Part shown: positions 34,608-37,934 of the stretch, piece by piece
How positions within the stretch are numbered: the first letter of the stretch is position 1
How the letters are laid out: every line of letters starts with the position of its first letter
Assembly (NCBI GenBank): GCA_016930155.1
Contig: JAFGHL010000022.1
Span: forward strand, 1-43,342
DNA: 43,342 bases
Source of the DNA: Dehalococcoidia bacterium
GTDB lineage: Bacteria > Chloroflexota > Dehalococcoidia > GIF9 > UBA5629
Direction: 5' to 3'
The notes under the pieces: model-generated
What the model saw: only the letters and a program-made list of their open reading frames with translations
Database searches by the model: none
What the model was told of the DNA's origin: nothing
Made by a program: the position numbers and the translations under genes

Positions 34608-34643
34608 GTACCGAGCGGTCGTTTTTATACAACCACCCGGTAC
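34608..34643 (-). terminator. Hairpin downstream of the GH3 gene (probable terminator)
   Basis: On the minus-strand RNA, GUACCGGGUGGUUG pairs with CGACCGCUCGGUAC through 14 pairs (three of them G-U), with an eight-base loop UAUAAAAA, then UUGUUUAU. The plus-strand RNA would have three mismatches at those places, so the structure favours the minus-strand transcript. It lies 43 bases past the GH3 stop and before the GGDEF/HD-GYP start. The U-tract is imperfect. Confidence 0.65.
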
Positions 34644-34686: not shown

Positions 34687-36363
34687 CTATTTGCCTGAAG
34701 TTATACCCACCGGTGTTGATATTGGAGCTGCAGTTTCGACGGTCTCCTCCGGCATCAATATAGCCAGATCTTTATCTGTAGGATTGATGTGCGGCGGCTT
34801 TAAATGCGCAAGGTCAGCGCCCAGTGATCTGCGCAGGTTCAAATAGCGCTCAAAGGCACCTCTAGGCAACAGAGTGATCTTGATTGGCTCGGAGCCCAGT
34901 ACATGCTGGACATTCCCGTAAGGAAGGCCATCGTCCATTTTCTGCAGTTCCCTATAGATATTCTGTGCGATGTCCTCCTCAGGAATTTTCGCAACCCCTT
35001 TTAACTCTATGAAGATATGCAGTATGGCATCCTTGCCCTGGTATTCTTTGCGTGCAGCCCAATCCACGTATGGAACTTCAGATCTGCTTACAGCTTGCCA
35101 TATTATCTTTTCCGTCAACCTGATGAAGCCGCCGATGTCTATCGTGTGATCGACTCTGCCTTCAAATACCATCTGGGGTAATTGGATGTTAAGGTTTTCA
35201 TTACTTAAAGAAGTGATCTTGATTACGTCACCGGTTCTGTATCTGACAAGCGGGGACCCATGGAAGTTGGTTACTACCAGCTCATATTTCTCGCCCGGCT
35301 TAACTTCGTCCAGCAGCAAAACGCGGGGGATGTAAGAGCTGTCCTCCTTGTTCCTCCTATATTCAGATTCTGGAATGAATTCAAGGAAGTTGAGACTGGG
35401 GGTGAAAGTCATACTGCTAAAATCCCAAGCCTGCATGGCTACCAATCCTGACTCAGTGCTCGCATATACGTCCAGCGTATCTCTACCCCAGGTTTTCTTA
35501 ATCGTATCCCGGAAAATCTCGACATCGCTGCCGCTGCCCATAATACCTTTGATATTCCATAAATCTTTGGGCATGAGATTGCGCCCGGCCAGCTTGCTTT
35601 TTAGCAGAGCTCCGGCAACACGGAAAAGTGCCTTTGGGTGAGAGACCAGTGAAGCGATATTCACATTTCCCATCTGCTGGTTCAGCTTCTCTCCGATGGC
35701 AACAAGCGCCAGGGTTAACCCGAAATAAAAATCGAAGCCTTCCGATAGTGCCAGCTTAAAGCTCGATGACAATCTTTCTTCGAATTCCATCTGCTGTGCT
35801 GCCTCGAGAGAAGGAAGGCTGATGCCTCCAATTTCATCTGATGCCACATAGGCATATGTGCCGGATACATATGGTCTTGGGGCGACGGCATATATAAATT
35901 TTAATCCTTCCTTCATTGCCGATACGTCGCCTTTTTTCTTGCAGCTTGCCAGTATGGCAATTGCTGCCCCTATCTTGCCTGATTCGTGGACGAACTCCTT
36001 AGTCAGCGGCACCCACTTGGTGCTCTCCCATTTAAAAGGATACTCGCTCGACCGACCCGATGAGTGCTGCCAGTACAGCGGCTTGCCCGGAAGCTGGTCC
36101 TCCTGTTTTTCCGACAGCTCAGGGCAGTAGTCTTTATAAGTTGTCAGCGGCACCCTCTTTCTGAATTCATTTACGTCTTGTGGCACCAGTCCGCCCATTA
36201 TTTTCTTGCCGAGATTGGACTGGTTGAGAAGCTCGATCTGCTCAAGCAGCAGCCTTCTCTGGATCGACATAAATTGCTCTATGTTGAGGTCAAGAAAGCC
36301 ACAGCACATCTGCCACAGTTCCTCTCTGCGGCCTGTGCGCAATAATTCTTTAATCGTAGGCAT
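34687..36363 (-). CDS. GH3-family acyl-adenylate enzyme
   Basis: A 558-residue member of the GH3 family, first known from plants, where members join jasmonate or auxin to amino acids through an acyl-adenylate. Family features are PLTTYKDYCP, the ATP phosphate-binding WQHSSGRSSEYP, VYASTESGLVAMQ, and the adenylate-binding SPLVRYRTGDVIKIT. Bacterial homologues are mostly uncharacterised, so the acid and the nucleophile are unknown; amide or thioester formation is possible. No signal peptide or membrane segment. GGAGGTG before the ATG is a strong ribosome site. A hairpin follows the stop. A pair of TAGAAC repeats lies upstream. Confidence 0.9.
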   Translation of the reverse strand: MPTIKELLRTGRREELWQMCCGFLDLNIEQFMSIQRRLLLEQIELLNQSNLGKKIMGGLVPQDVNEFRKRVPLTTYKDYCPELSEKQEDQLPGKPLYWQHSSGRSSEYPFKWESTKWVPLTKEFVHESGKIGAAIAILASCKKKGDVSAMKEGLKFIYAVAPRPYVSGTYAYVASDEIGGISLPSLEAAQQMEFEERLSSSFKLALSEGFDFYFGLTLALVAIGEKLNQQMGNVNIASLVSHPKALFRVAGALLKSKLAGRNLMPKDLWNIKGIMGSGSDVEIFRDTIKKTWGRDTLDVYASTESGLVAMQAWDFSSMTFTPSLNFLEFIPESEYRRNKEDSSYIPRVLLLDEVKPGEKYELVVTNFHGSPLVRYRTGDVIKITSLSNENLNIQLPQMVFEGRVDHTIDIGGFIRLTEKIIWQAVSRSEVPYVDWAARKEYQGKDAILHIFIELKGVAKIPEEDIAQNIYRELQKMDDGLPYGNVQHVLGSEPIKITLLPRGAFERYLNLRRSLGADLAHLKPPHINPTDKDLAILMPEETVETAAPISTPVGITSGK

Positions 36364-36367
36364 AGTT

Positions 36368-36374
36368 CACCTCC
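36368..36374 (-). promoter_or_regulatory. Shine-Dalgarno of the GH3 gene
   Basis: GGAGGTG, four bases before the ATG at 36363, suggests efficient translation. Confidence 0.8.
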
Positions 36375-36430
36375 AGCGTATATGAACAGGTACACTATGG
36401 CACGATTAAAGTGAATTTGGAAGTGATTAT

Positions 36431-36449
36431 GTTCTAGAAAAGAGTTCTA
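36431..36449. repeat. Direct repeat GTTCTA-N7-GTTCTA upstream of GH3
   Basis: Two identical GTTCTA hexamers start 13 bases apart in the 151-base interval between the RHH-like gene and GH3. They could be half-sites for a regulator of GH3, or chance. No clear -35/-10 pair was found beside them. The rest of this interval shows no gene. Confidence 0.3.
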
Positions 36450-36514
36450 TCTGGTACGAAGTTTGATTGAAAAAATGGAGGGCGAATGACTGATTTGCCT
36501 GCGCGTGTCAGGTA

Positions 36515-36841
36515 TTACAGTTTCCTGGTCTTGCTGGACTTGGTCAGGCCTTGAAGTTTTAAACTCAGCTTATCCAATTCCCCGTCAGTAGGCTGCTTGC
36601 CAAGTTCGAGGCCATAGCTGAGGAAGAACTCGAGGAAGCTGCGCAGAAGGTCTCTGATACCTTCCTCGAAATGGTGAAACTCCTCTTTGGTGACCAGGTC
36701 GCTTTGCTGGCTGGCAGCAGGCTCGTCCAGGTGGCTGTCGATAAGAATATTGATGAATTCTGAGACGCTCATATCGCCGCGATTCTCATCGATTTTCCTG
36801 ACCGTAGCCGCATCCAGTATCAGCATCCTTTTTTCCGTCAT
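36515..36841 (-). CDS. Small ribbon-helix-helix-like protein
   Basis: A 108-residue protein. The N-terminal half (MTEKRMLILDAATVRKIDENRGDMSVSEFINILIDSHL) has the strand-helix-turn-helix layout of ribbon-helix-helix DNA-binding proteins. The rest is an acidic then basic helical tail ending TKSSKTRKL. The ORF track starts at 36847, but that ATG touches the Shine-Dalgarno; ATG 36841 has AGGAGGAG at six bases and is preferred. It follows the winged-helix gene by 17 bases and is probably cotranscribed from the promoter at 37182. A DNA-binding role is inferred from predicted secondary structure only. Confidence 0.65.
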   Translation of the reverse strand: MTEKRMLILDAATVRKIDENRGDMSVSEFINILIDSHLDEPAASQQSDLVTKEEFHHFEEGIRDLLRSFLEFFLSYGLELGKQPTDGELDKLSLKLQGLTKSSKTRKL

Positions 36842-36847
36842 ACGCAT

Positions 36848-36855
36848 CTCCTCCT
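36848..36855 (-). promoter_or_regulatory. Shine-Dalgarno deciding the RHH-like start
   Basis: AGGAGGAG lies six bases before the ATG at 36841 and directly abuts the ATG at 36847, so it favours the inner start. Confidence 0.75.
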
Positions 36856-36858
36856 ATC

Positions 36859-37134
36859 TTATTTTTCTTCAGGCATGTTGAATTTCAGGACTTCTAATAC
36901 GGTCTCAATACTGCGCCGCAGCCCGTGGCCTTTTTCGGTAACTATGAAGGTAATCGAGGGATTACCAACCTCGATCTGATCGATCAGGCCCTGCGACACC
37001 ATGAATTTCAGATATTTCTGCAACTGCCTGTAGCTCATATTGGCGCTGTACATGATTTCGGTTTTACCCGCACCCTCAGCACCAATTCTCAGCATTTCGC
37101 TGATTATCTCAATGTTAGACCGCCGTTGATTCAT
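36859..37134 (-). CDS. Winged-helix DNA-binding protein (archaeal-type HTH_45)
   Basis: A 91-residue single-domain regulator. AGKTEIMYSANMSYRQLQKYLKFMVSQGLI is the winged-helix core as seen in the archaeal-type HTH_45 family, and FIVTEKGHGL forms the wing. No ligand domain is attached. It is the first gene behind a near-consensus promoter whose -35 is covered by an inverted repeat, so autoregulation is plausible. The RHH-like protein is encoded next, giving two small DNA-binding candidates in one transcript. Confidence 0.85.
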   Translation of the reverse strand: MNQRRSNIEIISEMLRIGAEGAGKTEIMYSANMSYRQLQKYLKFMVSQGLIDQIEVGNPSITFIVTEKGHGLRRSIETVLEVLKFNMPEEK

Positions 37135-37181
37135 TTGCCGGCCCGGCCGTGTTCTTATTCATGTTTTATGTAAGCTCGAGT

Positions 37182-37210
37182 AATATATAACGCTTTCTCA
37201 ATATTGTCAA
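37182..37210 (-). promoter_or_regulatory. Near-consensus sigma-70 promoter of the winged-helix gene
   Basis: Minus strand: TTGACA (37205-37210), exactly 17 bases, TATATT (37182-37187). It is among the best promoter matches in the window. Transcription should start near 37175, about 40 bases before the winged-helix ATG. Confidence 0.85.
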
Positions 37211-37222
37211 CAGAAACAATAT
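37201..37222. promoter_or_regulatory. Inverted repeat over the -35 (candidate operator)
   Basis: ATATTGT-N8-ACAATAT, perfect seven-base arms with an eight-base spacer. It covers the -35 hexamer of the promoter above, as expected for a repressor site. The likely binders are the winged-helix or RHH-like proteins encoded just downstream. Confidence 0.6.
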
Positions 37223-37248
37223 AACCGATGGCCGGGGTTAATAGAATC

Positions 37249-37923
37249 TCAGTATCTCTTGAAGAGGTTAAGAAAGCGGTCCTGATATGTGCTCCACAGC
37301 TTCCAGCGGTGAAGCTCGCTCACCAGTTCGGGTGCGTAGGAGGGATCTTTGGCGGCCATCTCAAAGAGCTCTTCAATATTTTCACGCGCATCCCGCGGAA
37401 CTCCCTGGTTATCCGCCACCAGCCTGCCTCGCCCGTAGAGCTCGGAGAAATTGCGGTAGGCCGAGTTCCTCGTGAGCTCAAAGGTGAATTTCATGAGTGA
37501 AACATCCCACAACTCCTCTACGCCTTTAATGATTGCACTGAGCGGATCGTTGCGGTTGTCGATGCGCTTGTTTATTTTATCAAGGATATTAACCAGCGGC
37601 TCTGAGACGATATTCATCTCCCCCGTTTCGTTTTTATACGAGTACAGAATACCCGGCTCGTGCGGGTTCTGCTCGGCCGCCATCTGTATAAAGCGCTTGG
37701 CTGGCCCGCTGAAGCCTTCAATATTGATCAGGTAGGTGGGGGTGACTATTTTTGGTCTTGCCGCTATTACCCTCCCTTCCCTGACCACGTTTACCTCATT
37801 CATAAGTTCGGTGATCATGTAATAATAGACGTTGGTGATTCCGAAAGTGGCCAACTGCTGTCTGGGAGGACGCAGGACCATGGTGTTCTCAATAGCCAGT
37901 CTTATTTTATCGTCAGCTTCCAT
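37249..37923 (-). CDS. Conserved hypothetical protein, soluble
   Basis: I do not recognise this 224-residue protein. It is soluble by composition, with no signal peptide or cysteine motif. The stretch REGRVIAARPKIVTPTYLINIEGFSGPAKRF looks like a structured beta-rich core, followed by a helical C-terminal half. The ORF track start is a GTG; the ATG two codons later (37923) has AAGG with a five-base spacer and is preferred. It follows the MBL gene by 11 bases, so the two are probably in one operon, and both may work together. Confidence 0.7.
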   Translation of the reverse strand: MEADDKIRLAIENTMVLRPPRQQLATFGITNVYYYMITELMNEVNVVREGRVIAARPKIVTPTYLINIEGFSGPAKRFIQMAAEQNPHEPGILYSYKNETGEMNIVSEPLVNILDKINKRIDNRNDPLSAIIKGVEELWDVSLMKFTFELTRNSAYRNFSELYGRGRLVADNQGVPRDARENIEELFEMAAKDPSYAPELVSELHRWKLWSTYQDRFLNLFKRY

Positions 37924-37934
37924 AGACACCTTAG

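Follow-up and report, generated by a model that had tools for sequence, protein, structure and literature searches.

A putative control element before a GH3-family gene in a conserved winged-helix and RHH-like gene cassette of Dehalococcoidia

The best-supported control site identified here seems to be a conserved dyad element before a gene for a GH3-family acyl-acid amido synthetase-like protein, rather than the inverted repeat ATATTGT-N8-ACAATAT at the -35 of a promoter further upstream. Both are located in the window, i.e., the whole stretch of 43,342 nucleotides of Dehalococcoidia DNA that was analyzed. In the reading preferred here, to which a probability of roughly 0.55 is assigned, the repeat is coincidental, and the upstream promoter, called first promoter in the following, would start a class-wide cassette consisting of a winged-helix regulator of the Sso10a family, an RHH-like partner and the GH3 acyl-acid amido synthetase. 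A dimer of the winged-helix protein would bind the sequence TAGAAC-N4-TTCTA and, once bound, would activate or gate the transcription of the GH3 gene, and the RHH-like protein, or the pair, may tune the first promoter via AGTAMTA sites around its -10. The coordinates of all features are listed in Table 1.

Table 1. Genes, promoters and candidate sites of the cassette region (positions in the window).
Feature	Position	Strand	Details
226-aa conserved gene, upstream of the cassette	37249..37929	-	Neighbor mainly in the window's own family
Inverted repeat ATATTGT-N8-ACAATAT, ATATTGTTTCTGTTGACAATAT	37201..37222	.	Letters real, judged a chance match
First promoter	37182..37210	-	TTGACA 37210-37205, 17-nt spacer, TATATT 37187-37182; start of transcription ~37175 (estimated)
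Imperfect dyad over the -10, GCGTTATATATTACTC	37178..37193	.	Candidate operator with AGTAMTA half-sites
Sso10a-family winged-helix protein, 91 aa	36859..37134	-	PF14947 1e-21; NF053610; AlphaFold/Foldseek
Small RHH-like protein, 110 aa	36515..36847	-	Conserved C-terminal helical part
Dyad TAGAAC-N4-TTCTA, here TAGAACTCTTTTCTA	36435..36449	-	Followed by an overlapping GAACA half-site; conserved in relatives
GH3 promoter	36394..36422	-	Weak -35 TTCCAA 36422-36417, 17 nt, extended -10 TGC-CATAGT 36399-36394; start ~36387 (estimated)
GH3-family acyl-acid amido synthetase-like gene	34687..36363	-	PF23571 5e-15, PF03321 4.7e-8, both above cut-off

The first promoter, TTGACA-17-TATATT, was found on the minus strand just as an earlier note on this DNA had described it. 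It matches 11 of 12 positions, which makes it the best promoter of the region, and lies 47 nt upstream of the ATG of the 91-aa gene. An exact TTGACA is present before the winged-helix gene in about 65 of 76 relatives. Judged by its sequence, this conserved promoter is strong and of the sigma-70 type. A search of positions 36300-37300 against Rfam gave no match.

The repeat ATATTGTTTCTGTTGACAATAT was likewise confirmed as letters. Its 7-bp arms are perfect, separated by a gap of 8 nt and centered at about -36, over the -35. Such a perfect repeat in front of regulator genes would fit an autoregulated repressor binding over the -35, as had been proposed. However, 223 of 2000 dinucleotide shuffles (11%) of the 114-bp intergenic region also yield a perfect inverted repeat whose arms are 7 or longer. 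The genome scan for the 22-base site, which the earlier note had suggested, returned this perfect copy and no second one in the 2.6-Mb genome, as well as one copy with a single mismatch, 38 bases upstream of a 198-codon open reading frame; this is no meaningful pattern. The comparison of the arms speaks against an operator, too. Although relatives retain both genes of the pair along with the promoter, the left arm is missing in every one of them, which is the outcome that the earlier note had named as refuting its reading. Among 71 scored promoters, arm complementarity of 7/7 was reached solely in the window, two score 5 and the rest 0-4, mostly 1-3. The closest relative (G006, 95-97% protein identity) carries ATAGCAT instead of ATATTGT and another one (G001) ACATCAT, each with 4/7 matches. 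Half of the right arm is made of the conserved -35, and it is conserved in close relatives because of this overlap. As the left arm is not kept in relatives, the repeat is judged to be a chance feature of this genome, hence a coincidence and not an operator, and an autoregulated repressor acting on it is highly improbable. What is left of the proposed autoregulation is a potential action via a different motif around the -10.

Sequence and fold place the 91-aa protein among the winged-helix proteins of the Sso10a family, so that this part of the earlier description was right. Beside the Pfam match, it reaches a score of 73.1 bits with NF053610 (NCBIfam, cut-off 60), which is matched by all 22 aligned members, and a PDB sequence search gave 4hw0 at 8.5e-7. 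The AlphaFold model (pLDDT 80, pTM 0.70) has 4hw0 and 1r7j as best Foldseek matches, with query TM-scores of 0.71-0.75. No other PF14947 protein was detected in the genome. The Sso10a proteins of Sulfolobus (PDB 1R7J, 1XSX, 4HW0; PMC4941522) share the sequence family, the winged-helix fold and the 10-kDa size class with the 91-aa protein. Sso10a proteins are described as archaeal chromatin proteins, and Sso10a1 and Sso10a2 bend, bridge or stiffen DNA (PMC4941522). In contrast, the 91-aa protein is bacterial, is encoded in an operon beside a metabolic gene and has apparently one dedicated target. In Sso10a dimers the C-terminal helices pair as an antiparallel coiled coil, whereas the corresponding helix 67-83 of the 91-aa protein is predicted to be short in a model of the monomer.

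The assignment of the second small protein is plausible, yet not established. In the segment MLILDAATVRKIDENRGDMSVSEFINILI the 110-aa protein resembles RHH proteins, and its C-terminal part LLRSFLEFFLSYGLELGK is conserved at least as strongly as the N-terminal part. There is no Pfam match for the protein of the window; RHH_1 is matched by 2 of 40 members of its family (best E 0.097), an hhalign comparison with four RHH proteins gave 1.8%, and the Foldseek search with the model found no structural match. In this model of the monomer, an extended segment, to which no strand was assigned, is followed by the helices 13-22 and 28-41 with a pLDDT of about 80-85. Regulators of the CopG/Arc/MetJ type likewise have an N-terminal extended segment, two helices with a turn and this size, but the 110-aa protein differs from them by lacking a significant family or structure match, by its additional conserved C-terminal helices and by a helix A which looks 2-3 residues shorter. 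Of the two small DNA-binding genes which had been suggested, the co-directional pair and the winged-helix protein hold, and the RHH-like protein is plausible.

The pair itself is genuine and, as far as can be judged by gene order, conserved across the Dehalococcoidia, usually together with the GH3 gene. A search of 60 related genomes detected the RHH-like gene in 41 of them and the winged-helix gene in 40. In a set of 80 named loci, nearly all from Dehalococcoidia or Chloroflexi bins, the winged-helix gene is located directly upstream of the RHH-like gene in 74, which supports the earlier hint at a paired regulator. Two of the six exceptions (G018 and G026) are cleanly devoid of the winged-helix gene, and the other four either lie at a contig end or close to it, or show a different neighboring gene. 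In most loci the GH3 gene comes next after the pair; a genome taken as Dehalococcoides has one extra gene of 196 codons in between. The cassette is also present in single-contig genomes of 1.4-2.1 Mb, which were taken as Dehalococcoides and Dehalogenimonas (inferred names). It is apparently decaying in one genome (G030, L197, 4770-5825), where truncated winged-helix, RHH-like and GH3 frames follow each other in order. Duplicated RHH-like genes were observed in L115, L117, L125 and L146, with a GH3 gene, or a second one, close to the copies of L115 and L125. One pair lies on a contig labeled as Deltaproteobacteria (L138), probably due to a binning or naming error.

Two small genes side by side, one of them with an N-terminus weakly similar to antitoxins, could also form a toxin-antitoxin pair with autorepression. 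Yet both genes appear to encode DNA-binding proteins, a toxin family was not found among the proteins of the cassette, and the vertical conservation with the GH3 gene across the class is unlike typical mobile pairs, so that this explanation is barely credible.

The third gene is assigned to the GH3 family by its domain matches, with amide synthesis as predicted function, and it is the probable target of the regulation. OlsH, a bacterial GH3-like enzyme, takes part in the formation of ornithine lipids in planctomycetes (PMC12493201). The GH3 acyl-acid amido synthetase-like family is common to both, but the gene of the Dehalococcoidia has a putative function and comes with a regulator pair and a promoter dedicated to it; Chloroflexi go unmentioned in the main text on OlsH (PMC12493201). 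A literature search for RHH or GH3 proteins in Dehalococcoides found nothing relevant. Downstream of the GH3 gene, a hairpin of fifteen pairs (34608-34643, minus strand) is a likely terminator before a GGDEF/HD gene. In some close relatives the sequence TAGTACTA was observed upstream of a promoter-like sequence before the GGDEF/HD gene (L075 ~3979, L078 ~3443, L079 ~3531, L080 ~3421), where the same regulator may have a further site.

Between the RHH-like and the GH3 gene, about 760 bases beyond the first promoter, lies the conserved element TAGAAC-N4-TTCTA-N12-TTCCCA-N17/18-(TGN)CATAGT (36449-36394 in the window). The N12 stretch reads GAACAyAATCAC. The dyad starts 27 nt before the TTCC hexamer, i.e., the -35, in 73 of 74 sites and 28 nt in the remaining one. 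From there to the CATAGT hexamer, nearly all of the 74 sites have a spacer of 17 or 18, and most sites show a TG at the extended -10. Columns left free in the search pattern turned out to be invariant as well (element offsets 15 G, 17 A, and 26 C). The element was found in 38 of 60 related genomes with one or two sites each, two being present in several genomes with a duplicated GH3 gene; the reversed control pattern gave no site in these 60 genomes. In single-contig genomes the perfect dyad occurs once per genome, at the cassette. A reading of TAGAAC-N4-TTCTA as a LexA/SOS box was set aside, since the site is single-copy at the cassette.

A dyad upstream of a poor -35 is the general layout for a local activator encoded beside its target gene. 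The GH3 element shares this layout, as its dyad keeps a constant distance from a weak -35 downstream of it, and the -10 is of the extended type. In the window, the -35 matches three of six positions and the dyad is centered at about -55, an anatomy which suggests an activated promoter. Activation rather than repression is inferred from two features only, the weakness of this -35 and the place of the dyad. In the literature no report was found of a regulator family of the Sso10a type, or of this site sequence, used in such a manner.

The winged-helix protein most likely reads this element and controls the GH3 gene. It is favored because the element is kept without the RHH-like gene and is gone without the winged-helix gene. 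In one genome (G316, L159) the winged-helix and GH3 genes are kept, the RHH-like gene was not detected, and the element TAGAACTAAGCTCTA ... TTCTCA-17-GATAGT is present at identical spacing. In G018 and G026 the winged-helix gene, the GH3 gene and the element are all missing, and the RHH-like gene is retained together with the first promoter. In G009 (L198, 2877-3106) the GH3 gene alone is kept, both regulators and the element being absent, and it sits behind remains of the first promoter with TTGCAG as -35. The informative losses are few, comprising one genus and two single genomes, and as GH3 and winged-helix genes were lost together in the genus of G018 and G026, the loss of the GH3 gene alone could explain the loss of the element there.

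The RHH-like gene adjoins the element and co-occurs with it in almost all genomes, so that the RHH-like protein might be the reader of the TAGAAC element, with a role for the winged-helix protein at the first promoter or in the nucleoid. This is unlikely, given that G316 retains the element without a detectable RHH-like gene and that G018 and G026 lack it although this gene is kept. Still less likely is the reading of the element by an unrelated global regulator, with the small genes as mere neighbors and the winged-helix protein as a nucleoid protein. The name of the family, Sso10a chromatin protein, and the bending, bridging or stiffening of DNA by Sso10a1 and Sso10a2 (PMC4941522) point in this direction, but each genome has essentially a single copy of the element, at the cassette, no regulon is seen, and where the winged-helix gene is missing, so is the element.

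Returning to the preferred reading, the sites which may serve at the first promoter form a weaker motif than the GH3 element. AGTAMTA is enriched on both strands around the -10 and the transcript start of the first promoter, with 53 of 151 copies (in 417 kb) lying within 75 bp before the winged-helix start; it is rare at the other strong promoters of the same loci (n = 16, two of which are the cassette promoters of G018 and G026). The imperfect dyad over the -10 is perfect in two relatives (GAGTAATATATTACTC and GTGTAATATATTACAC). In the close relatives of the window 79% of its cells are paired compared to a mean of 28%, a value to which the -10 sequence itself contributes. The dyad is retained in G018 and G026 despite the missing winged-helix gene, and G009, devoid of both regulators, still carries the AGTAMTA motif. 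An autoregulation of the RHH-like protein via AGTAMTA is a reasonable guess, but no more. In a few relatives (L110 and L126) a TAGAAC dyad directly abuts the -35 of the first promoter, so that the same protein would act at both promoters there.

Outside the cassette, the leader motif RGTAMTAGG-N3-AARGTAMTR was rejected as a marker of further sites in relatives, as its copies seem to be dispersed repeats that lack good promoters. Such repeats, found in several related genomes (L174, L175, L176, L177, L179), carry AGTAATAGGAATATAGTATTA or AGTACTATGAGAAAGGTAATA beside conserved flanks; they resemble the cassette leader and are not located at recognizable promoters. At six loci (L099, L103, L105, L122, L128, L143) the usual promoter near the winged-helix ATG was not found, and in several of these the leader is of another kind, longer and containing a motif similar to TTTGTGAACCTTTAGGCTCATTA.

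By this analysis a false operator is removed, and a sharply defined, testable candidate element is put in its place. The more far-reaching proposal, that the Sso10a-family protein and its undescribed RHH-like partner form a dedicated, class-wide two-protein switch for a single GH3 enzyme with an activator-type promoter, is tentative and should be regarded as rather doubtful at present. If true, an Sso10a-type protein would act as a sequence-specific local switch in bacteria, which would be new compared to the chromatin role in archaea. It would also provide the first handle on the control of a GH3 enzyme in Dehalococcoidia, organohalide-respiring genera included, and the 56-bp promoter model could be used to search genomes of a class for which genetic tools are scarce.
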